Shown: positions 1-11,748 of the stretch, piece after piece | Numbering within the stretch: the stretch's first letter is position 1 | Layout: the number at the start of each line of letters is the position of its first letter | Made by a program: the position numbers and the translations under genes | The notes under the pieces: generated by a model | Database searches by the model: none | What the model saw: the letters and a program-made list of their open reading frames with translations, nothing else | Told to the model about the DNA's origin: nothing | Assembly: GCA_027618835.1 (NCBI GenBank) | Contig: JAQCHZ010000005.1 | Span: 1-64,000 of the forward strand | Direction: 5' to 3' | Source of the DNA: Chloroflexota bacterium | Lineage (GTDB): Bacteria > Chloroflexota > Dehalococcoidia > Lucifugimonadales > Lucifugimonadaceae | DNA: 64,000 nucleotides

Positions 1-309
1 ACCACGATCGAGCAACAGGCGGACCACGTCGAGAGAGTTGGTCTGGGCTGCTACATGCAGGGGCGAATCACCAATTTCGTCCCTCGCATTGACATCGTCT
101 CCTCGGGCAATCAAGGCCCGTGCGATATCGACCCGGTTCTCTTTTGCCGCACGGTGAAGATCCCAGCCTTCGAGGTCCAACTCCTCGACGTTCGCAAGGT
201 CCTGCTCCTCGAACTCCTTGAGGTAATCAACTGATCGCTGGACGAGGCTGTCTCTCCGACGTTCGATCTCGTCGGACTTCCTGCGTTCTATGTCTCTGTT
301 TTCAGTCAT
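1..309 (-). CDS. Ankyrin-repeat protein, 5' part (ANK4), runs off the window
   Basis: The reading frame is open over 103 codons from an ATG at 309 to the left edge, so only the N-terminus is seen. The first 77 residues match those of the ankyrin protein at 4980-6059 at all but two positions (Thr for Pro at 2, Asp for Gly at 37). They form a charged leader (residues 1-45, rich in Glu/Arg) followed by ankyrin repeats beginning at EGWDLHRAAKENR and continuing with a SPLHVAAQ repeat. Ankyrin repeats are protein-binding scaffolds; the partner is unknown. It is separated from the other ankyrin genes by the oppositely oriented gene at 506-1372. Confidence 0.85.
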   Translation of the reverse strand, partial: MTENRDIERRKSDEIERRRDSLVQRSVDYLKEFEEQDLANVEELDLEGWDLHRAAKENRVDIARALIARGDDVNARDEIGDSPLHVAAQTNSLDVVRLLLDRG

Positions 310-505: not shown

Positions 506-1372
506 ATGGCTAAGTGCAATATATGTGGCGATAGTGCCGGGTGGTTTAAAAAAACTCACGCTGAGTGTGTTCAGATAGTGACGGACCTTACCTCCAAGAC
601 CCAAGAGATGGTTGCTGATGCTGTGCCCCAGATTTCGAGACACAAAGAGATCGAATATGAGGTGGAATCGGTCGTCGCTAAAAGCGGTGTTCTTTTAGAG
701 CCGTATTTTGAGCGCCAAGCGTTGGCGGCGGGTTGGAAATTGGTGTCTAGCCGGGCTCTTGCCAACGATGGAATTACTGAAGATCTCGAACTTGCACTGC
801 TCAAGTTTGTGAAACTGCATAATCTTTGGGAACATGAGCTTAAGGATGATCTAGATTATTCAGACTTCATATTCTGGGGCATATTGAGGGATCTAGCCCA
901 CGATAAAATTCCTAACCTGAACATTCATACATCCAGTCCCATTCCTTTGAATCTACATAAAGATGAGATGTTGATTTGGTTGATCGACCAAGTTGTGTAC
1001 TCTCGGAAAATTGTTAGAAGATCCCTAGTCGGTGGAAGTACAGGTGGTGCAATCGAGCTTGGATCAGGTGTTTACTATGGCAAATCCGAATTTGAATTGC
1101 ATGAAACGTCTATCAGTGAGACCGAAAGTGTTGCAACCGGTTTTGTCGCTATTACCACACGGCATTTGTATTTTTCCGGTGAAGGAACTTATTTCAGGGT
1201 CAGATACGCCGACATCGTAGCTACCCAGTCGTACAAGGACGGGATAGGTTTCCAGCGTGAAGGAAACGATGGTATGGAGTATTTCCTTACCGAGGATGTA
1301 TGGCGACTTTGGAATCTAATCGAGAACCTGAAGTCAGAACCCAATCTTACAGAGTATTCTTCGGGCTCCTGA
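506..1372 (+). CDS. Hypothetical protein with N-terminal zinc-finger motif and PH/GRAM-like C-terminus
   Basis: This 288-residue protein matches no family I can name. The N-terminus carries CNICG, then a HAEC motif about a dozen residues later, a C-x2-C...H-x2-C arrangement that could bind zinc. The middle (about 50-180) is predicted mostly helical. The last third (about 190-275) has alternating beta-type segments, including FVAITTRHLYFSG and the following YADIV segment, which resemble bacterial PH/GRAM-like domains. The start ATG has GAGGG a few bases upstream. It is the only plus-strand gene among the minus-strand nuclease/ankyrin cluster, so it has its own promoter. Function unknown; the PH-like assignment rests on pattern only. 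Confidence 0.65.
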   Translation: MAKCNICGDSAGWFKKTHAECVQIVTDLTSKTQEMVADAVPQISRHKEIEYEVESVVAKSGVLLEPYFERQALAAGWKLVSSRALANDGITEDLELALLKFVKLHNLWEHELKDDLDYSDFIFWGILRDLAHDKIPNLNIHTSSPIPLNLHKDEMLIWLIDQVVYSRKIVRRSLVGGSTGGAIELGSGVYYGKSEFELHETSISETESVATGFVAITTRHLYFSGEGTYFRVRYADIVATQSYKDGIGFQREGNDGMEYFLTEDVWRLWNLIENLKSEPNLTEYSSGS

Positions 1373-1490: not shown

Positions 1491-2621
1491 CTATAAACCA
1501 TATTCCCTAAACACGCTGACCACGCCAAGTTTGCCTGTGCGAGAAGCGTAGTCAGAACAAGTCTCTTTTTCTTCAACATCCGAAAACATCGGGTCGATTA
1601 AATCTATGTACGGATTCTGCAAAGACCAATCTTGATCTTCCAGATTTTTTTTCTTAAAAGAATCCCAATCTGACCAATTGTCTATCCCTGCTCGTCCTAG
1701 TTCATTTTCAGCTATATGATCAATGAATTCACTGAGTGCTTTGGGCGAGTCATATAACGTGCAGACCCACAACCAATTCAATATATGAGGAGGGTCTTCA
1801 CCTTCCAATCCTGACGGTACAACAGAACTTCCGTATCGGTTAAATCCCTGTTCAGACCAATAATGCCATTCAACCCATTCAAGCCACTCATCCCACTCAG
1901 GATCAGACATCCAGCCCGACCAGTGGTTAAATCTCGTTTGGTCAACGAACATCTCGGGAATAAGCGCCCATCCACCGTTTTTTTCAACGACAATTGGAAG
2001 CTCGTCAAGAATAAATCCTGCTTCTAGGATCCCAGTGACCGACTCATGATCGTCCAGAACACATGCGTTGAGTAGTTTTGGAAAGTCCAGTTTTTGATCC
2101 TCTATCGAGTAATCCGAGCCTATCGAGGGTTTCCAGCTCGACCACTCTTCATCAAGTTCATCTTTCTTCATCAAGCTAAGGTCATCGGTATTTGCACCAC
2201 GATCGATCAGCAGGCGGGCAACATCGAGAGATTTGTGCCTGACTGCGAAGTAGAGGGGTGTGCCATAACCGCTACGCCAACCCTCACTGCCGGCCAAACT
2301 TTCAATGCGCGCATGATGATCGATCAGAAGGCGGGCAACATCGAGAGAGTTCTTCCAGGCTGCCCAGTGCAAGGGGCTCATGTATAACCAGTCCCACCTT
2401 TCAACATCGTGTCCTCGTGCGATCAAGACTCGTGCGATATCGACCCGGTTCTCTTTAGCCGCACGGTGAAGGTCCCAGCCTTCAAGGTCAGGTTCCTCGA
2501 CATTCGCAAGGCCCTGCTCCTCGAACTCTTTCAGGTAGTCGAGTGATCGTTGGACGAGGCTGTCTCTCCGACGCTCAATGTCGTCAGGCTTCCCGCGCTC
2601 TATGTCTTTGTTTTCAGGCAT
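1491..2621 (-). CDS. Ankyrin-repeat protein with Trp-rich C-terminal half (ANK3)
   Basis: This 376-residue protein opens with the same leader as the neighbouring ankyrin genes (residues 1-45, with IERRRDSLVQRS). About three ankyrin repeats follow, to residue ~145 (SPLHWAAWKNS, GTPLYFAVRHKS). The remaining ~230 residues are not canonical repeats and are unusually rich in Trp, Asp and Glu (for example the WDEWLEWVEWHYW stretch). Short degenerate ankyrin-like segments reappear at the very end. It starts 12 bases downstream of the exonuclease gene's stop, so it is probably the last gene of the same transcript. A 44-base tract (2320-2363) is identical to 5140-5183 in ANK1, a sign of recent recombination between paralogs. 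Confidence 0.85.
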   Translation of the reverse strand: MPENKDIERGKPDDIERRRDSLVQRSLDYLKEFEEQGLANVEEPDLEGWDLHRAAKENRVDIARVLIARGHDVERWDWLYMSPLHWAAWKNSLDVARLLIDHHARIESLAGSEGWRSGYGTPLYFAVRHKSLDVARLLIDRGANTDDLSLMKKDELDEEWSSWKPSIGSDYSIEDQKLDFPKLLNACVLDDHESVTGILEAGFILDELPIVVEKNGGWALIPEMFVDQTRFNHWSGWMSDPEWDEWLEWVEWHYWSEQGFNRYGSSVVPSGLEGEDPPHILNWLWVCTLYDSPKALSEFIDHIAENELGRAGIDNWSDWDSFKKKNLEDQDWSLQNPYIDLIDPMFSDVEEKETCSDYASRTGKLGVVSVFREYGL

Positions 2622-2633
2622 CTAAATACATTA

Positions 2634-4157
2634 CTAGGGCAACTCTGTCGGGTCCTCAGACTCATTATCAAATCGATCAACAACACGTTGGGCCGCCACA
2701 ACGAGGTCGTCGATATCGAAACCATGTCCGATCTGGGTCTCTAGGTATTCGATTCTCTTCATCAGTTTTTCAGAGAAGCTCCTGAAGTAGTTCTCCCCAC
2801 GGTCTTCAGCTTCCCGTGCAGCGAGCACATTCACCCAATCATCAGACTGTTCGAGACTGGCCTTCTTAGATTCCAGTTCAGTTATGTGGTTCCTGATCTG
2901 GCTAAGCCGACGAATCATCCTCACAAGGTCGTACCCGACCCCTTCACCCTGTACAGCGTCTTCTGAAGCGTTGTACTGGTCAACGATTTTCTTTATCGCA
3001 TCCTTATCGCCTTTTGCATAAGCCTCATTGAGGTCAGCCATCAGCCTAGTACGAAGCTTCCGGTCTTGCTCATCGTCCGCAAGATCAGGGTGGACCTGCT
3101 TGGCAGCATCCCTAAACATGGATTTCAATTCGTCATCAGCAGGTTTTTCCTGCCAGTCAGCATCAGAATCAGGGGGAGCTGTAGGGGCGCCTGAGTAATC
3201 ACCAAGCAATGCCTTCAAAGCCTGAAGTGCTTTATCAAGTCCTGCCTTGTCTCCACGTGCAGCATAGACCTCAACATCTAAGATATGTATCTTCAGGATC
3301 AGCGGCGCAATGGTCGCTGTCATCTGGTCCTTAAACCATTTGATTGAACGGAGCATGTCGGCCAACTCAGCCTCGAGCTCCAGCATCCGGCTTTCAGCCT
3401 GAGCTACCTGCTCTTCGTAATTCCCAAGTTCGATCTCTTCGGGGGATTTGTGCGAATTGTTTTTTGCTGCCGTGTAACCTGCTACGGATTTGCCGGTCAT
3501 TTTTTTATCTGTACTTTCGTTACTTTCGGATGGCTGAGCGCATAGGCGTTCAGGCCAAGAACCTCGGCTCCATTCTTTTTGCAGAGACTGCAGTTCTTTG
3601 ACGGAGGCTGTACCTAACGTTGAGTTAGCGTGGGTTATCGATAAGGCAACCTTGGCTGTTGTTCGGACGTCAGCCAGGGCATCATGAGCGTTTGCATGCG
3701 GAATCCCAAACTTCTGTGCCATAGCCACAAGGTCACGAGGGCCGGAATAGAATTTTCTCGCCCATACCAATGGGTCAAGAACGCTGAGCTTGGGAAGTTG
3801 TAAACCATGCCTTTTGCATTCTTGGTTGAGAATCGTAAAGTCGAACGGAGCGTTGTACATCATTATCGGGTAATCACTGTATTTCGTGATTGTTTCGATA
3901 AATGATTCAAAAGCCTCTTTTACTGGCACTCCTTCTTCGAGGATGCGAGCATCAGTGATGCCGTGGACTTTTAGTGCCTGCCAATGGCTCCTAACCCCTG
4001 TAGCGACGATACTGTTCAGTTCATTGGTAAATGAGTTGTCTGATGGATCAAAAATAGCGTAGCCGATCTGAACGGGACGGGTCGTGCAAGGATCAGCACT
4101 CGTCGTCTCGAAATCAAGCACCATTACCGGCGTATCGGTCCAACTCATAATTTTCAA
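2634..4157 (-). CDS. DEDDh 3'-5' exonuclease fused to a J-like domain
   Basis: The 507-residue protein begins with a DnaQ/RNase T-type exonuclease domain. Exo I is DFETT (Asp15, Glu17), Exo II is NAPFDF (Asp106) and Exo III is HDALADVRTT (His158, Asp163), so all catalytic residues are present. A linker and coiled coil (~240-320) follow, then a J-like segment around residues 340-395 with an intact HPD triad (356-358) and the preceding FRDAAKQV helix. A second coiled coil makes up the C-terminus (~410-507). The exonuclease would degrade single-stranded or frayed DNA or RNA ends; HPD suggests contact with an Hsp70/DnaK. It lies between two ankyrin genes on the same strand, 35 and 12 bases from them. 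The start could also be the ATG three codons inside. Confidence 0.85.
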   Translation of the reverse strand: MKIMSWTDTPVMVLDFETTSADPCTTRPVQIGYAIFDPSDNSFTNELNSIVATGVRSHWQALKVHGITDARILEEGVPVKEAFESFIETITKYSDYPIMMYNAPFDFTILNQECKRHGLQLPKLSVLDPLVWARKFYSGPRDLVAMAQKFGIPHANAHDALADVRTTAKVALSITHANSTLGTASVKELQSLQKEWSRGSWPERLCAQPSESNESTDKKMTGKSVAGYTAAKNNSHKSPEEIELGNYEEQVAQAESRMLELEAELADMLRSIKWFKDQMTATIAPLILKIHILDVEVYAARGDKAGLDKALQALKALLGDYSGAPTAPPDSDADWQEKPADDELKSMFRDAAKQVHPDLADDEQDRKLRTRLMADLNEAYAKGDKDAIKKIVDQYNASEDAVQGEGVGYDLVRMIRRLSQIRNHITELESKKASLEQSDDWVNVLAAREAEDRGENYFRSFSEKLMKRIEYLETQIGHGFDIDDLVVAAQRVVDRFDNESEDPTELP

Positions 4158-4192
4158 ATCCTAGATTGAATTATTAACCCTAAATGGCTTCG

Positions 4193-4987
4193 TTATAGGG
4201 TTTTAAACGAACTGTCTAAAGAGAGTTCTTTTAAGCTGCCCATTACCCACTGCCTGGGTGTATGTCCGTATTTGTTCATTGCATCGATGTCAGCACCATT
4301 TTCAATCAGAAGCTTACCTACAGCAAGCGAGTCCTTTTGAGCTGCCAAATGCAATGGCGTCCACCTAGTATTCGACTTCGCTTCGATCTCTGCACCACGT
4401 TCGATGAGCAGGCGTGCAACGTCGATTGAGTTCTTATTTGCTGCTATATGCAGTGATGTCCAGCCATCGTTGTCCTTCGTTTCGATATCTGCACCATGCT
4501 CTATTAGAAGGGTGGCAATGTTAATAGAGTTCTTCCAAGCAGCGTGGTGTAGAGGGGTTTGTCCATCGTCGTTCTTTGCTTGAATGTAGGCATCGCGCTC
4601 GATCAGAAGCTTGACCACTTCGAGAGAGTTGTTCACGGCTGCCACGTGCAGGGGCGTCCAGCCAATTTTCGACTTCGCTTCGATGTCGACATTGCTATCG
4701 ATTAACAGAGTGGCAACTTCGATAGAGTTATGCCCAGCAGCCACCCCTAGGGGCGTCCAGCCATTGTTCGACTTAGCTTCGATGTCCGGCCCATGCTTGA
4801 TCAGCAGGCGGACTACATCAAGGGAGTTCTTATAGGCTGCCCAGTGCAGGGGCGTCCAGTTATCGTTGTCCTTCACTTCAATATCGTCGCCTCGTGCTAT
4901 AAGAGAACGTACGATGTCGATCCTGTCCTCCCGTGCCGCACGATGGAGGTCCCAGCCCTCGAGGTCTATGCCCTTGTTTTCAGTCAT
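4193..4987 (-). CDS. Ankyrin-repeat protein, short-leader form (ANK2)
   Basis: The protein has 264 residues and is almost entirely ankyrin repeats: about seven 33-residue units with WTPLHxAA starts plus a degenerate cap ending TPRQWVMG. I chose the ATG at 4987 over a start 17 codons upstream because MTEN matches the starts of the paralogs. The leader is shortened: MTENKG joins directly to IDLEGWDLHRAA, lacking about 37 residues present in the other copies. The start overlaps the stop of ANK1 by 8 bases (ATGACTGA), suggesting translational coupling. No signal peptide or membrane segment is seen, so it is probably cytoplasmic. The ligand is unknown. Confidence 0.85.
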   Translation of the reverse strand: MTENKGIDLEGWDLHRAAREDRIDIVRSLIARGDDIEVKDNDNWTPLHWAAYKNSLDVVRLLIKHGPDIEAKSNNGWTPLGVAAGHNSIEVATLLIDSNVDIEAKSKIGWTPLHVAAVNNSLEVVKLLIERDAYIQAKNDDGQTPLHHAAWKNSINIATLLIEHGADIETKDNDGWTSLHIAANKNSIDVARLLIERGAEIEAKSNTRWTPLHLAAQKDSLAVGKLLIENGADIDAMNKYGHTPRQWVMGSLKELSLDSSFKTL

Positions 4988-6059
4988 CTTGATAGGCATC
5001 CATCCAGCCAACAATTGCGTCCATTGGATCTGCACCACGATCCATCAGTAAGTCGACTACATCGGAAGAGTTTTTTGAGGACGCCGAGACCAGCGGCGTC
5101 CGGCCGTTTTTGTCCATCCCATTGACATCTGCACCGTGTTCGATCAGAAGGCGGGCAACATCGAGAGAGTTCTTCCAGGCTGCTAAGTGCAGGGGCGTAC
5201 TTCCTTTTTCGTCCCTCGCATGGACTTCTGCACCGTGTTCGATCAGAAGGCGGGCAACATCGAGAGATCTCTCCCAAGCTGCCTCGTGCAGGGGCGTACT
5301 TCCTTTTTCGTCCCTCGCATGGACTTCTGCACCCTTTTCGATAAGTAGCCGAACGATGTCGACCCTTTTCTTCGAGGCTGCAACATGCAGAGGTGTATGT
5401 CCGTATTTATCTTTCGCTTCGATCTCTGCACCATGATCGATAAGCAGAAGGGTGATACCTGGCTCATCCCAATATACTGCATTATGCAGGGGTGTTTCAC
5501 TTTGATCATTCCTCGCATTTACATCTGCACCATGCTCGATGAGCACTTGAATTACATATGGTTTAGCAGAGGCTTCGGAAAAGACTGCCACGTGCAAGGC
5601 TGTGTCACCGTCATCTCTCTTTGCATTGACATCTGCACCCTTTTCGATCAGCAGGCGGGCAGTGTCGGAATGATCCGGTTTCCTTGGTTGTCCGATAGCT
5701 GTGTCGAGAAGAGGTGTGTAGCCCATTTCGTCCCTCGCATCGATCTCTGCTCCATGATCGATCAAAAGACGGGCAACATCCAAGGAGGCCCTATGTGCTG
5801 CTACGTGAAGGGGCATCTGTTCGGCTTGATCCCTAGCATTAACATCGTCCCCCCGTGCGATCAAGGCACGTGCGATATCGACCCTGTTCTCTTTAGCCGC
5901 ACGGTGAAGGTCCCAACCTTCGAGGTCCAACTCCTCGACGTTCGCAAGGCCCTGTTCCTCGAACTCCTTGAGGTAATCAACTGATCGCTGGACGAGGCTG
6001 TCTCTCCGACGCTCAATCTCGTCGGATTTCCTACGTTCTATGTCTCTGTTTTCAGGCAT
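4980..6059 (-). CDS. Ankyrin-repeat protein with full leader (ANK1)
   Basis: This 359-residue protein has the shared leader (1-45) and then about nine ankyrin repeats that run nearly to the C-terminus. Several repeats are close to consensus (TPLHVAASKKR, STPLHEAAWERS, STPLHLAAWKNS), and two adjacent repeats are nearly identical at DNA level with a 99-base period. The start codon lies inside the end of the HNH nuclease gene; ATGCCTGA gives both the ATG and the upstream TGA, an 8-base overlap. Direct coupling to the nuclease suggests a functional pair. An inhibitor or targeting subunit is possible, but that is inference. It ends overlapping ANK2 in the same way. Confidence 0.88.
   Translation of the reverse strand: MPENRDIERRKSDEIERRRDSLVQRSVDYLKEFEEQGLANVEELDLEGWDLHRAAKENRVDIARALIARGDDVNARDQAEQMPLHVAAHRASLDVARLLIDHGAEIDARDEMGYTPLLDTAIGQPRKPDHSDTARLLIEKGADVNAKRDDGDTALHVAVFSEASAKPYVIQVLIEHGADVNARNDQSETPLHNAVYWDEPGITLLLIDHGAEIEAKDKYGHTPLHVAASKKRVDIVRLLIEKGAEVHARDEKGSTPLHEAAWERSLDVARLLIEHGAEVHARDEKGSTPLHLAAWKNSLDVARLLIEHGADVNGMDKNGRTPLVSASSKNSSDVVDLLMDRGADPMDAIVGWMDAYQDD
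5131..5328 (-). repeat. Two near-identical 99-base ankyrin repeat units
   Basis: Units 5131-5229 and 5230-5328 share long identical tracts, including GCACCGTGTTCGATCAGAAG at 5131 and 5230 and AGGGGCGTAC at 5191 and 5290. A degenerate third unit begins at 5329. The period equals 33 codons, one ankyrin repeat, so copy number can change without shifting the frame. Confidence 0.85.
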
Positions 6060-7125
6060 CGGTCCGAGCGTTTCTCATATGATCTGTAAGCAACTGTCGA
6101 TTCGGGATCGACCCATCGATTCTTGGTCGTAAACCCTGGCCCTCAAGTCCTGCGTAGGTAGTTGATCGCAATTTCACGGCAATGGAAACGGTCAATGAAT
6201 CCGGTTCTATCCACAGCAGATGGTCATCGAACAATGCATGTATATCAGAGCGTAATAACAAGCCGTTATCAAGTGAATTTCTACCACTAACAGCATGAGG
6301 CTCTATATGTGCCGCTTCAAGCACTTCAGCCGGTTCATCACCCGTAATGGCACATTTGCCATCGTACAAACGCATCAAAGCGCGCCTGAACTTAGGAGCA
6401 CCTCTTCGGTCTCTTAAGGATTGAGAATAGCGTTTATCAGTGTCGTCGGGAATATCGTCCAGATCTGAATATGGATCAGTGGATTCACCTGGTAATACGT
6501 CAACAATCTTTATGCCAACAGGAAAACTATCACTCTTTTGATAATTACCAGAATTATCTATAAATACTATTGCGCCTAACTCTCTAAGTTCCTGCAGCGT
6601 GCGTCTGATCGCTGGTCTGATGTTCTCGTTATATGGATGAAAGGATGACAACTGAGATTCAAACCGGTCGTAAATATCAGACAACTTGAATTCTGTGTCT
6701 AAAAGGTCAATGCATGAGACCAGATCAGAATGCCAATCGGAATGTTGGTCTTCGCGTTTAATGAACTCTGTTACAAAGTCATATAGTTCTTGATCAGATC
6801 GTTTTTCCCATTCATCGAATACTTCTTGGCCTAAGCGGGATAAACGGGCTGGTTTTGCCTGGTCATCTACTTGTCCTGTAGTAACAGATGCTCTCCACCC
6901 CACACGACCATTTTCAAGATGGCCGTCAAACCAGTCACGTAAATTTTTTAGACTGTTTGAGAACTGTTTCCTAGGTCTTCCGCCATTCAAATTCGGCCAA
7001 AATAGTTGATACGCTTCGGTCCATGAGTCAACTTCTAATTCGGGTGGTTGTTTTCCACGACCTTTTTTACCGCACCGGGCGAGAAAATAGGCCACGATAA
7101 ATTCGTTGCGTGTTCTTTTGTACAT
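6052..7125 (-). CDS. HNH_2-type endonuclease, first gene of the nuclease/ankyrin operon
   Basis: The 357-residue protein ends in an HNH nuclease domain of the HNH_2 type (about 258-305): Cys258, AAHIEPH (His273, His277), GRNSLDNGLLLR (Asn287) and DIHALFD (His296). The N-terminal ~200 residues are not recognised; they contain helix-rich, charged segments, possibly winged-helix (PAIRRTLQELRELGAIV). Relatives of this domain occur in Type IV-like or McrA-like restriction enzymes and in mobile elements. It precedes ANK1 with an 8-base overlap and follows a 353-base gap, so it probably heads the transcript. The target (DNA modification, phage DNA) cannot be read from sequence. A mobile-element homing role is an alternative. 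Confidence 0.82.
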   Translation of the reverse strand: MYKRTRNEFIVAYFLARCGKKGRGKQPPELEVDSWTEAYQLFWPNLNGGRPRKQFSNSLKNLRDWFDGHLENGRVGWRASVTTGQVDDQAKPARLSRLGQEVFDEWEKRSDQELYDFVTEFIKREDQHSDWHSDLVSCIDLLDTEFKLSDIYDRFESQLSSFHPYNENIRPAIRRTLQELRELGAIVFIDNSGNYQKSDSFPVGIKIVDVLPGESTDPYSDLDDIPDDTDKRYSQSLRDRRGAPKFRRALMRLYDGKCAITGDEPAEVLEAAHIEPHAVSGRNSLDNGLLLRSDIHALFDDHLLWIEPDSLTVSIAVKLRSTTYAGLEGQGLRPRIDGSIPNRQLLTDHMRNARTDA

Positions 7126-7478: not shown

Positions 7479-9278
7479 TTAAACGAGGGAATAGAATTTT
7501 CGCTTTCCTTCAGTTCTTAAGATCAACTCTCCTGAATCGAGCATCGCCTTACGGGCGTTGCCGTATGTTTCACCTCTGATCCCGGCTACGCCCTGTAACT
7601 CACTAGCACCTAACTCACCCACTTCTAAAAGAGCTTCACGAATCATCATTTTTCCTGATTCAATTACGAACTCTTGCGCTCTGCCGATGTTCTGAGGCCA
7701 ACCGGTTTGCTCGCTTAACGTAATAACTACAGGATCGAGAGATTCGCCTTCCCTCTGAATCGACATCAACTCACGACCTTTTACGGCACCTTCAGCACCT
7801 TTCCGTCGACTCAAAATAAGAGCTGTATCGACACCGCCCAAAATCGCTGTGCTTCCGAGAATGGATTGCCCTGGATCATCGGGATTCTGAGTCGCCTTGT
7901 TTGCGTGGTGACTAACGACAAATGTCACGTCAGTTCTTCTGCCAAGATGCTCTAGAGGAGAGAGTGCCCTATTTACCAATGAATAATCGTTGGCATCTGC
8001 CACTTGCGGCAACATTCGAAACAATGTGTCGATAATCACTAGTACTGGATTGAAATGATTAATCATCGGCTCAATCCAGTGTTCGAAAATCGATTTGTCC
8101 GAATTTTGGAACACTGGCGGTGGACCAACGAGTAGATGAATTTCATCAACCGATCTAATCCCCATCTGTTTGAATCTGTTAATCAAATCTCCACGGCGGC
8201 CTTCAAATGCTAGATAGAGAACAGGTCCTTTGTATGTGGACCAGCCCAGGAATTTTTCTCCTCGGCAGGTAGCAAGTGCCAAACCGCAGAGTGTCTGAGT
8301 TTTTCCATCCTTGGGCTTCGAAACTAAAATCGCCAGTCCACCACGTGGGATTCTGCCACCTAGCTGCCAATCCATCTCTGGAGCTTGGTAACTAAGGATT
8401 CCATTTGCATCCATAATTCCGCTTGGAATTGTTGGTTCATCTGTCACTGTTCCCTCTTCCCTTACCCCTACGGGGAGGGAAAAGGGAACAGTGACATCGG
8501 ACGGGCGTGCAGCGGGTGGAGAAGTAGCCTCAGAATGAAGCTCTAGTAGTTTCTCCAATGTCCCGCCATTTTCAACGAAATCCGCAGCGTCACCTTTTAT
8601 CGGTGCGGCTGGATCTATGAGCCATAGTGGTGGTTCTGACAAAACTTCGGCGACACGACCCATGTGTCTTCGTCCAGGTTCATCGTTATCTGGCCACAGG
8701 CAAACGTCGAAACCATCCAATACTGAGAGGGCTTCTCGACTAGGCGTGGTTGAAGCACCAGTGACCGTTGCGACGACTTGTACCTCGAGTGTTCTGAGCA
8801 CATCGCATTTTCCCGCACCTTCTGTGACGTATACCGGCTTATGTTTATCAAATTCAGGGATTAACTCTGTTCCATATAACGGCATATCTTTCGAAGAAGT
8901 ACTGTTGTGACCGACCCAAAGAAAGCGCTTTTTACCATTGGGCAACTCTTTACGAATCTGAGTGCCGACCACTGTTCCATCGAAATTTCTAACATGCCAG
9001 CGACCTACTACGGTCCAGGTCTCCGGTTCTTTCACTAGGCGTTCGATCCCCAGACGATAAGCAAGATCGATGTAACCGCCCCTAGCTGAACAGGTAAAGC
9101 AATGCCATCCATGACTTTCTACATTCCAACTAGCGGAAGGATCAGTATCGTCATGGGCAGGACAGATAAACCTGATCCATTCTCCAGTACGTTTGCCCTG
9201 CTGTTGCGTGTTCAGAACATATTCGATCTGTGAGATAACGTGATTTGTATTAAGAGAAACAATCTCTCGTGTATTCAT
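7479..9278 (-). CDS. Primase-helicase of the mobile element (CHC2 zinc finger, Toprim, RecA-like)
   Basis: The 599-residue protein has three modules. A primase zinc finger has Cys39, His42, Cys60 and Cys63 (ICPAHDD, HCFTCS). A Toprim-like region (~148-215) has YVTEGAGKCD and LWPDNDEPG. A RecA/AAA_25-type ATPase (~305-520) has KPKDGKT (Walker A, starting with Ser320 rather than Gly) and VLVIIDT (Walker B). The C-terminus may be a winged helix. Such proteins initiate replication of plasmids, phage satellites and integrative elements. A 55-base palindrome lies in frame in the linker between the Toprim and ATPase modules (residues 261-279). It follows the small HTH gene by 4 bases, so the two are co-transcribed. 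Confidence 0.85.
   Translation of the reverse strand: MNTREIVSLNTNHVISQIEYVLNTQQQGKRTGEWIRFICPAHDDTDPSASWNVESHGWHCFTCSARGGYIDLAYRLGIERLVKEPETWTVVGRWHVRNFDGTVVGTQIRKELPNGKKRFLWVGHNSTSSKDMPLYGTELIPEFDKHKPVYVTEGAGKCDVLRTLEVQVVATVTGASTTPSREALSVLDGFDVCLWPDNDEPGRRHMGRVAEVLSEPPLWLIDPAAPIKGDAADFVENGGTLEKLLELHSEATSPPAARPSDVTVPFSLPVGVREEGTVTDEPTIPSGIMDANGILSYQAPEMDWQLGGRIPRGGLAILVSKPKDGKTQTLCGLALATCRGEKFLGWSTYKGPVLYLAFEGRRGDLINRFKQMGIRSVDEIHLLVGPPPVFQNSDKSIFEHWIEPMINHFNPVLVIIDTLFRMLPQVADANDYSLVNRALSPLEHLGRRTDVTFVVSHHANKATQNPDDPGQSILGSTAILGGVDTALILSRRKGAEGAVKGRELMSIQREGESLDPVVITLSEQTGWPQNIGRAQEFVIESGKMMIREALLEVGELGASELQGVAGIRGETYGNARKAMLDSGELILRTEGKRKFYSLV
8442..8496. repeat. 55-base near-perfect palindrome inside the primase-helicase gene
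   Basis: The arms TGTCACTGTTCCCT (8442-8455) and AGGGAACAGTGACA (8483-8496) pair perfectly. Inner arms rich in CCCT/AGGG continue the stem, with one mismatch and a two-base bulge, to a three-base loop (8469-8471). It encodes a proline/valine linker at residues 261-279. The composition resembles the GAGGG/CCCTC hairpins in intergenic DNA at 36729 and 62591, suggesting an in-frame insertion of a mobile palindromic repeat. Confidence 0.8.
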
Positions 9279-9282
9279 CGGA

Positions 9283-9507
9283 TCAGTCCTTACTTGCTGG
9301 ACCGTTTTTGATTTCTAGGATTGCACCGTTTGCAAGAAATCTATTCCACGCCGGTACAGGAATTACGTATCCCCAACCCAATCTCACCGCAAACGGCACT
9401 TGTCCAGCTTTCGCCAATCGGTACATTCGACGGTGGCCGATTCCGAGTCGGTCGGCTGCTTCTCGTAATCCACCTGGCAGAACATCCAAGCTAGTTATCG
9501 CCATCAC
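9283..9507 (-). CDS. Small HTH/excisionase-like DNA-binding protein
   Basis: The protein has 74 residues with a MerR/Xis-type winged helix-turn-helix: LREAADRLGIGHRRMYRLAK, then a beta-wing-like VRLGWGYVIPVPAW and NRFL. Such proteins commonly direct excision or repress element genes. Either of the first two Met codons could be the start. It lies 4 bases upstream of the primase-helicase and is divergent from the HTH gene at 9611, so the gap between them is a likely regulatory switch region. Confidence 0.75.
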   Translation of the reverse strand: MMAITSLDVLPGGLREAADRLGIGHRRMYRLAKAGQVPFAVRLGWGYVIPVPAWNRFLANGAILEIKNGPASKD

Positions 9508-9610: not shown

Positions 9611-10459
9611 ATGAGTTACCGAGCTCTAGATGATTCTCAGATTGAAGAAGCCCAACAATTACGTAACCAAGGTCTTACGAATATGCAAATTGGTGAGAGC
9701 TTGGGGGTGTCGACCAAAACAATTCAGCGAGCACTTGGACCGAAACAACGAAAACAGCTGCCAGAGCGGATAGATGAATGGCCAGTTGACCGGTTATGGC
9801 CTAAATCTTGGAACGCTAAAAGATTCCGAGATTCTGGACTTGGAGATGAAGCTGCGGAAGTACATTGGGCCATAGTTCAAGGAGCAGTTCACTCCAATAA
9901 CCAATGGCTTCAATGGTTCGAGCGGTCATGGATTGAACTTAGGGATGAGTTGACGGATGAATCGCTTCTTATTTCAACCGACCCAAAGGAACCAGCTGCC
10001 AATTGGTTCGACGCTCTTGCTGGCCTGCCGGTCCTTTGCGAATGGTTGGGCGGCTCACGTGCTTGTGCAGAAATAAAAGCAGCTGCGATGGAGTACCGAC
10101 CTTGGGTGAGCAGCCCCAGGACACGTAAAGCAGCAGAAATAACGCCGAAAGGCGTAGGGAAGTTGTTGGCAAAGACATTGCAGCACGACCCTGAAGTGCG
10201 ATCTCGAATTGGATTCAGATCCGCTGCCCGAACTCAAACACAAGAACTAACCAGACTTATAAACAAACAGCAACTCATGCGGGCGGTCACGTTGCCGCAG
10301 GAATCAACACCAGGGTTATCACCTGTATTTGTTTTGAATGGCCTCCTAGAAAGAATTCCAATGTTCGATATGCATCCGAAAAGATCCTCATACGCCAAGT
10401 TCGGGATATGGCAAATGTACGTTGGATTGTTCAGTTTTGAACCCATAAGGAACAAGTAA
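9611..10459 (+). CDS. HTH-domain protein upstream of the integrase
   Basis: The 282-residue protein begins with a resolvase/Hin-type helix-turn-helix: IEEAQQLRNQGLTNMQIGES, then LGVSTKTIQRALG (residues 10-42). The rest (about 50-282) is helical, Trp-containing and not recognised. Its stop overlaps the integrase start by one base (TAATG), so the two are translationally coupled. It is probably an element-encoded regulator or accessory recombination factor; no recombinase catalytic motif is visible. Restriction to relatives of this element is likely but untested. Confidence 0.65.
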   Translation: MSYRALDDSQIEEAQQLRNQGLTNMQIGESLGVSTKTIQRALGPKQRKQLPERIDEWPVDRLWPKSWNAKRFRDSGLGDEAAEVHWAIVQGAVHSNNQWLQWFERSWIELRDELTDESLLISTDPKEPAANWFDALAGLPVLCEWLGGSRACAEIKAAAMEYRPWVSSPRTRKAAEITPKGVGKLLAKTLQHDPEVRSRIGFRSAARTQTQELTRLINKQQLMRAVTLPQESTPGLSPVFVLNGLLERIPMFDMHPKRSSYAKFGIWQMYVGLFSFEPIRNK

Positions 10460-11646
10460 TGACAGGACATATTGAACGTCGAAAAAACGGATGGAAAATC
10501 ACCATTTCTGCAGGCACTGATGAGTTAGGCAAACGTCAGCGTGTATATGAGACAGTCAAAGGCTCTAAAAGTGAAGCACGGCGAAGACTAACGGATCTCC
10601 AACGGCAAATTGATACTGGAAGATTTGTGCCCAGGGGGCCGAGAACATTTGGTCAATTCGTGAATGATTGGCTCCCTAATAAGAGACATGCTATTAGACC
10701 TAGCACTGCTGCAAGCTACGAGCGTTTATTGAATGGGTACATCCTTCCAGAGCTCAGTGATCGACCTATACAAAAAATAACGTCATCCGAAGTGGGCAGA
10801 ATCATCACGACCCAGGCCGATCGAGGGAAGTTGTCCACCGCAGAGCATCTATTCAGATTGATGCGTGTTGTATTTAGGTCAGCGATGCAACAACAGGAGA
10901 TCGGGCGTGATCCTACCGTGGGAGTCGATCGCCCAAAGGCAAAACGACGAGAGCTATCGGTACTCACGCCATCTGAATGGCGCAGAGTTAGTGCATACGT
11001 CGAGCAGAGGTATCCGCATTTCCTAACCCCTCTAACTGTTCTTATAACTACTGGCCTTCGTCGATCGGAGCTATGTGGGCTCCAATGGGGAGATATTGAT
11101 TTTGACCGGCGAGTGCTGTCAGTCAACCGAGGATTTCACGTCGTCAAAGGTAAAGGTGGAGTGCACACGGACCCGAAAACAGATCGAAGTCGGCGTGTTG
11201 TAGCGCTAGACGCCATCGCTCTCGAATTGTTGCGAGTGCAATTTAACAACGTGGGCACAGTGAGAAGTGCATTAGATCTAAAGACAACAATGGAAACGCC
11301 TGTATTTTCTTTAGATCAAATTTCACCTCTGCGCCCAGACACGATCAGTCAACTCTGGTTGAAAGTGAAGAAAGCTCTCGGGTTGAACGTCAGATTGCAC
11401 GACTTACGCCATACTGCCGCCACGTTAATGCTTGCCGCCGGTGTTCCTATCGGCGACGTTAGTGATCGCCTCGGACATGCGACTCCAGGGTTCACGATGA
11501 CGGTCTACAGGCATGCAATACCGGGTGCGCAAGAGGAAGCGGCCGAACGACTGGCAGCATTGCTGCATGGTGATGCGTATGTGTCAGATGGCAACAAACT
11601 GTCGCCAGGATTGTCGCCACAACGAAAACTGGCCGCTATTTCGTAA
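10459..11646 (+). CDS. Tyrosine recombinase (phage-type integrase)
   Basis: The 395-residue protein has an N-terminal arm-binding region (1-60, ending near RFVPRGPRTF), a core-binding SAM-like domain (~62-150) and a catalytic domain (~165-360). The catalytic residues are Arg201 (TTGLRRSELCG), HDLRH (His314, Arg317), GHA (His340) and the nucleophile Tyr350 (MTVYRH). It integrates and excises the element at a tRNA attachment site, here tRNA-Lys, whose 3' end is 26 bases beyond the stop. It follows the HTH gene in the same transcript. Length and motifs are complete, so it is probably active. Confidence 0.93.
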   Translation: MTGHIERRKNGWKITISAGTDELGKRQRVYETVKGSKSEARRRLTDLQRQIDTGRFVPRGPRTFGQFVNDWLPNKRHAIRPSTAASYERLLNGYILPELSDRPIQKITSSEVGRIITTQADRGKLSTAEHLFRLMRVVFRSAMQQQEIGRDPTVGVDRPKAKRRELSVLTPSEWRRVSAYVEQRYPHFLTPLTVLITTGLRRSELCGLQWGDIDFDRRVLSVNRGFHVVKGKGGVHTDPKTDRSRRVVALDAIALELLRVQFNNVGTVRSALDLKTTMETPVFSLDQISPLRPDTISQLWLKVKKALGLNVRLHDLRHTAATLMLAAGVPIGDVSDRLGHATPGFTMTVYRHAIPGAQEEAAERLAALLHGDAYVSDGNKLSPGLSPQRKLAAIS

Positions 11647-11662: not shown

Positions 11663-11672
11663 GATTTCAGTT

Positions 11673-11748
11673 TGGTGACGGGCCGGGGACTTGAACCCCG
11701 AACCTAGTGATTAAGAGTCACTTGCTCTGCCAATTGAGCTAGCCCGTC
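11673..11748 (-). tRNA. tRNA-Lys(CTT), encoded CCA
   Basis: On the minus strand the acceptor GACGGGC pairs with GCCCGTC. The D stem is GCTC/GAGC, and the anticodon stem AGTGA/TCACT encloses loop CTCTTAA, giving anticodon CTT. The T arm is CGGGG-TTCAAGT-CCCCG, the discriminator is A, and CCA is encoded at 11675-11673. Its 3' end faces the integrase and is the presumed attachment site. Confidence 0.95.

Follow-up and report, generated by a model that had tools for sequence, protein, structure and literature searches.

The window analysed here comprises the first 64,000 nucleotides of contig JAQCHZ010000005.1 from a Chloroflexota bacterium (assembly GCA_027618835.1, a 2.4-Mb draft in 41 contigs), and carries on an integrase-borne mobile island a minus-strand cluster (1491-7125) of two nuclease genes and three ankyrin genes. 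One of these nucleases, called exonuclease-J below, is a DEDDh exonuclease fused to a coiled-coil protein in which an HPD-bearing J domain is embedded (cc-J). Genes for cc-J proteins were found to lie directly upstream of genes for repeat or other scaffold proteins in several phyla, and this gene pairing was well supported. Exonuclease-J and the ankyrins that carry a short N-terminal leader are tentatively read, with confidence a little short of even, as one module of this recurrent arrangement, in which the leader would dock on cc-J, the scaffold would choose the target, the J domain would recruit Hsp70 and the exonuclease would be an addition, with defence as the likeliest use.

The exonuclease-J gene was located at 2634..4148 (-) and encodes 504 aa from the ATG at 4148, which is probably the start and is better placed than the TTG at 4157 (507 aa); its distance to the upstream ankyrin gene ANK2 is 44 bases with the ATG and 35 bases with the TTG. 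Directly downstream, after a gap of exactly 12 bases, lies the leader-bearing ankyrin gene ANK3 (1491..2621, -; leader 2493-2621). When the C-terminal part of exonuclease-J alone was searched as a single protein against 393 genomes of the same class, two relatives were retrieved, and both lay directly upstream of a leucine-rich-repeat (LRR) gene. Profile searches took in 400 genomes from the window's phylum, 292 from that of a cyanobacterial hit and 227 from the window's order, together with two overlapping sets of 297 and 237 genomes, each centred on a Desulfobacterota-type hit; two plasmid loci were added. The neighbourhood could be judged at 28 cc-J loci, all picked by cc-J similarity and not by their neighbours. 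At 21 of them the cc-J was joined to a scaffold, as a gene directly downstream (16 loci) or as a cc-J-LRR fusion in a single chain (5 loci). The separate partners were ankyrin (the window), LRR (L038, L039, L112, L122), HEAT (L065), right-handed beta-helix (L066), TPR (L094, L096, L107, L108), FGE-sulfatase (L095), WD40 (L106) and Sel1 (L099, L111, L113) proteins; most of these classes were confirmed by Pfam and the rest were read from translations or annotation. Fifteen of the 16 pairs ranged from an overlap of 14 bases to a gap of 13 bases, and the WD40 pair was 189 bases apart. Besides the window, the pairing was found in other Chloroflexota, Cyanobacteria, Desulfobacterota and Acidobacteriota. 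The occurrence of cc-J was sporadic (about 2-5% of the genomes sampled in three phyla), with two loci on plasmids and at least four in the scan of genome contigs. No relative was found in the viral contigs scanned with exonuclease-J and with stand-alone cc-J; no cc-J was found in phages, where the listed matches covered only the exonuclease domain.

Several features of individual cc-J loci were also recorded. The five fusions, from five genomes, all lie downstream of a DnaA-like ATPase gene, which is preceded by ruvB where the stretch is long enough; the order ruvB - DnaA-like ATPase - cc-J-LRR fusion applies to L115, L116, L117, L119 and L120, with ruvB seen in L115, L117 and L119. This order suggests a tie to DNA replication or repair. 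Two partners contain sigma-70 regions, namely region 1.1 together with FGE and Lcl_C at L095:1928-3382, and region 4 together with Sel1 at L111:2286-2759, and some cc-J scaffolds may act in transcription. In addition to the tally, a same-order locus (L124) was found to carry a coiled-coil fragment beside an NHL-like repeat gene.

The N-terminal 190 residues of exonuclease-J form the DEDDh 3'-5' exonuclease domain (residues 4-190; 3579..4139, -), which was matched by RNase_T in Pfam (2.2e-17) and by sequence to PolC, DnaQ and a CRISPR-associated DEDDh protein in the PDB. All the catalytic residues (D12/E14/D103/H155/D160) could be read from the sequence, as in DnaQ/PolC-type exonucleases, from which the protein differs in its fusion to the cc-J module. 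The remainder of the protein comprises a coiled coil, then a J-like domain in which HPD stands at residues 353-355 (3084-3092), and further helices. A profile for which nine other cc-J proteins were used matched the coiled-coil/J module (residues 231-480; 2709..3458, -) at 135.8 bits (E 9e-44 for a database of a single sequence), covering residues 35-276 of a 308-aa stretch, and the best of 2000 shuffles reached 8.9 bits. HPD was invariant across the aligned cc-J proteins, and the matches of the cc-J profile to solved J domains included DnaJ homologues and auxilin. With the Pfam DnaJ model the window protein stayed below threshold (E 0.004, 17.6 bits vs a cut-off of 27.8), whereas the relative at L095 passed at 28.4 bits. 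In the predicted structure, helices 338-352 and 360-378 flank HPD with a predicted local distance difference test (pLDDT) score of about 81-88, which gives the order helix II - HPD - helix III of the J-domain co-chaperones (DnaJ, HscB and auxilin type); a stand-alone relative (L094) was modelled at a mean pLDDT of 86 with the same helix order. Unlike these co-chaperones, cc-J proteins hold the J domain between long coiled coils and have a scaffold partner gene, and here an exonuclease fusion as well. Among all profile hits inspected, the fusion of cc-J to a DEDDh exonuclease was seen only here. Other N-terminal additions occur in the cc-J proteins at L039:1258-2463 and L065:4499-5569, namely a double zinc ribbon and, by eye, a helical region resembling TPRs.

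Most of the partner proteins share a short N-terminal leader with the pattern S-x-L-[IV]-x-R-[GST]-L-x-L, expected at about residues 20-35. The leaders of 14 partner proteins outside the window were scored with a position-specific scoring matrix (PSSM) against random sequence, each protein being left out in turn, and 12 of the 14 gave p <= 0.0004, while the other two gave 0.005 and 0.01. The leader of L112 was mis-registered in this PSSM, and a run with the correct register gave similar scores for the window; the Sel1 partner at L099 showed no clear leader. The conserved R falls at residue 25 in the window leaders and at residues 24-32 in the correctly registered others. The window leader is plausibly a divergent member of the shared class. 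The cc-J-LRR fusions aligned continuously to the separate LRR partners save for a gap exactly over the leader. Its absence from exactly these single-chain proteins is most simply explained if the leader serves as a docking tag, dispensable in a fusion.

Four ankyrin genes were found on the island, and those of the cluster had strong Pfam matches. The initial annotation had described the three ankyrin genes of the cluster and leaders on such genes; the leader was borne out for ANK1 (4980..6059, -; leader 5931-6059) and ANK3, whereas ANK2 (4193..4987, -) is leaderless, and a fourth leader-bearing gene, ANK4, was added, of which the 5' part lies at 1..309 (-; leader 181-309) and the rest is cut off by the contig start; its leader is 97% identical to that of ANK1. 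In ANK3 only about three repeats could be recognised, and its long C-terminal part matched nothing in Pfam. At the DNA level, identity is 86-95% among the leaders of ANK1, ANK3 and ANK4 and drops to 59-63% in the repeats that follow. A conserved leader with diverged repeats is as expected for paralogues that stay with the same docking partner while their binding surface varies, although recent duplication by itself could also account for part of the leader identity. The overlaps of the HNH nuclease gene with ANK1 (ATGCCTGA) and of ANK1 with ANK2 (ATGACTGA) were both exactly 8 bases. Every ANK start (6059, 4987, 2621 and 309) reads ATG[C/A]CTGA and so carries an out-of-frame TGA able to end an upstream gene. 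The overlaps may therefore be a by-product of duplication, and for this reason they were not counted as evidence that the HNH gene and the ankyrins are coupled.

The HNH gene (6052..7125, -) encodes an N-terminal domain followed by a DpnI_C winged helix (residues 129-197, 4.7e-16) and an HNH_2 nuclease (residues 258-306, 1.9e-13), both above the Pfam cut-offs, with the catalytic residues H273/N287/H296 intact. PADLOC matched mREase_II (6.4e-11) on the same winged helix, and the closest solved structures by sequence were DpnI (4esj) and the modification-dependent VcaM4I (6yex), at about 2e-5. The winged helix-HNH (wH-HNH) architecture includes N6-methyladenine-dependent type IV restriction enzymes, as shown experimentally, and these work as single chains (PMC11037411). 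With HhiV4I, SruGXI and HtuIII from the same work (PMC11037411), the window protein shares an HNH nuclease with intact H-N-H behind a DpnI-type winged helix in one chain; it differs from the three-domain PUA-wH-HNH enzymes in that its N-terminal ~125 aa, unlike their PUA domain, matched nothing in Pfam. The protein is predicted to be a modification-dependent type IV restriction enzyme of known architecture. A genome of the same genus encodes a relative that is 59% identical over residues 113-347 and has a different N-terminal part, and the ankyrin and exonuclease-J genes were absent from its 4.6-kb contig; likewise neither was found near a relative farther removed (45% across the HNH part). 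Since relatives occur without ankyrins or exonuclease-J, the HNH gene is probably independent cargo, separate from the exonuclease-J/ankyrin module and sharing its operon. No relative was found in the viral contigs scanned with the HNH protein. At L083 (G007 contig C58), a wH-HNH relative was noted near a GIY-YIG-like open reading frame (ORF) and, by eye, a DNA methylase-like C terminus, which are the surroundings of a typical restriction neighbourhood.

Based on these observations, the following mechanism is proposed for the cc-J/scaffold module. The N terminus of the partner would be a short helical leader that docks on the coiled coil of cc-J, and the remainder, a scaffold of no fixed fold, would bind the target. 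The J domain would bring Hsp70 (DnaK) to the scaffold-bound target, and here, where cc-J has gained a DEDDh exonuclease, targets would meet a 3'-5' nuclease. The scaffold has been multiplied to give no fewer than three ankyrins with a leader (ANK1, ANK3 and ANK4), which would compete for one J-protein. Defence against foreign nucleic acid is possible, and would be the likeliest use given the mobile-island setting and the neighbouring gene for a predicted type IV restriction enzyme.

A number of observations weigh against this proposal. Seven of the 28 cc-J loci (L067, L068, L069, L098, L109, L114 and L118) had no scaffold partner. The distant Chloroflexota J proteins L067-L070, L078 and L079, none of which had a scaffold neighbour, seem to be a different J subfamily, and L067-L069 nevertheless remain among the seven negative loci. 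All five fusions lie in the same operon context and could stem from a single event, which lowers the number of independent cases to 17 of 24 when the fusions are counted once; their link to ruvB also makes a housekeeping role possible. The model confidence was low for the exonuclease domain. Foldseek with both models gave no significant fold match and was dominated by the long helices, and the single-protein DnaJ scores of cc-J proteins were mostly below the Pfam cut-off. The leader scores in the window were modest (p = 0.003 against random sequence and 0.002 against shuffles for ANK3, and p = 0.02 for ANK1 and ANK4), and ANK2 lacked the leader (p = 0.16 against random sequence). ANK1 and ANK2 lie upstream of exonuclease-J and not downstream. 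No DnaK gene was seen in the locus, and PADLOC gave no convincing match for cc-J or its partners.

Four other explanations were weighed. Because of the ruvB-linked fusions, the main rival is a housekeeping role, in which the scaffold would place Hsp70 on replication or repair machines and the exonuclease fusion would be a repair variant that came to lie on the island by chance. The closest solved relatives of the exonuclease domain, which are replicative proofreading exonucleases, point the same way, as do the many cc-J genes without obvious mobile genes in the short stretches read. We nevertheless regard this role as unlikely, since recognition of variable targets accounts better for the sporadic distribution, the change of scaffold fold and the multiplied ankyrin paralogues on an integrase-borne element. 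More improbable is a single defence operon of five genes, as the initial annotation had grouped them, with the ankyrins as specificity or control subunits of both nucleases. All five minus-strand ORFs were indeed recovered at the coordinates given for them, and their tight co-directional spacing from HNH through ANK3, with the 8-base overlaps, would suit such an operon, as would two nucleases on a mobile island. However, wH-HNH relatives occur without ankyrins or exonuclease-J, these enzymes act as single chains (PMC11037411), and the ATG[C/A]CTGA starts can supply the upstream stop. The pairing of exonuclease-J with an ankyrin was thus retained from that grouping and the HNH gene was set apart; HNH relatives with neither gene nearby are an outcome that the initial annotation had named as counting against its grouping.

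Slightly less probable again is that the ankyrins are eukaryote-like, host-interaction proteins of a symbiont-type Chloroflexota, placed beside unrelated nuclease cargo. Sponge-associated Chloroflexota, SAR202 among them, commonly have ankyrin proteins (PMC6306507), and relatives were seen to carry small ankyrin genes that lack the leader and have the same DLEGW-type cap. The leader, however, is absent from the ankyrins of those relatives and is charged, with no signal peptide by eye, and cc-J/scaffold pairs are also found in cyanobacteria and Desulfobacterota, to which the host-interaction reading does not apply. Ankyrin proteins act as immunity proteins in some polymorphic toxin loci, and from this lead an HNH toxin held in check by ankyrins had been considered. 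A paper on polymorphic toxin systems (PMC3482391) mentions the ankyrin repeat ten times. The 8-base overlap of HNH and ANK1 would agree with a toxin and its immunity protein, a pair which we nonetheless judge very improbable: membership in the polymorphic toxin/immunity systems was rejected because the HNH protein has no delivery domain in Pfam and has instead a sensor domain for DNA methylation, and its relatives stand without a neighbouring ankyrin. Nor does an enzyme with modification-dependent relatives (PMC11037411) call for ankyrin inhibitors, as had also been suggested.

The cc-J/leader-scaffold module was also compared with described systems. DnaJ fused to FNIII-repeat proteins, or to TPR instead, occurs in the predicted conflict loci of the GAP1-N2 and HSP70-GrpE-DnaJ systems (PMC7159879). 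The joining of a DnaJ domain to a repeat scaffold is alike in description; those loci carry GTPases and HSP70/GrpE genes, and none was seen here. The MZA anti-phage system, with its ankyrin sigma factor MzaA, was rejected, as the best MzaA score was 142.6 bits, derived from the ankyrin repeats, vs a cut-off of 800. The cc-J proteins matched Pfam and NCBIfam weakly, mostly via generic DnaJ models, and no description of the cc-J/leader pairing was found in the open-access literature searched. The module would be a variant of J-domain co-chaperone systems. The broadest version of the proposal, a widespread modular recognition in which cc-J works with interchangeable leader-tagged scaffolds of at least eight classes to deliver targets to Hsp70, and here to an exonuclease for immunity with multiplied ankyrin specificity subunits, is conceivable and, taken as a whole, doubtful. 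If it holds, a single J protein would accept binding scaffolds of many unrelated kinds, like plug-ins, by way of one short tag that they share, which would tie Hsp70 biology to target-specific recognition; its function could be tested by leader swaps. It would also provide a rule for finding cc-J/scaffold pairs across phyla, and the exonuclease fusion would be a case of the module directing a nuclease.

The location of the cluster on an integrase-borne island, as the initial annotation had it, was confirmed. Upstream of the HNH gene lie the element genes for a primase/AAA_25 helicase (7479-9278, -) and an HTH_17 excisionase-like protein (9283-9507, -), and the tyrosine integrase (10459..11646, +) abuts a tRNA-Lys gene (11673-11748, -), with a probable attachment site at 11666-11718. 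A 53-bp partial copy of the 3' part of this tRNA-Lys, 94% identical, was found close to the end of contig C25 in this genome, where the full tRNA is absent. This copy, which adjoins a 62-aa remnant of an integrase C terminus (L135:5391-5760, G000 contig C25), is consistent with the second attachment site of the island, or may be the scar of another element. Between ANK3 and ANK4, at 506-1372 (+), lies an ORF of 288 aa that matched nothing in Pfam, NCBIfam or PADLOC and in which a small CxxC-type motif at the N terminus and a PH-like portion at the C terminus were recognised by eye.

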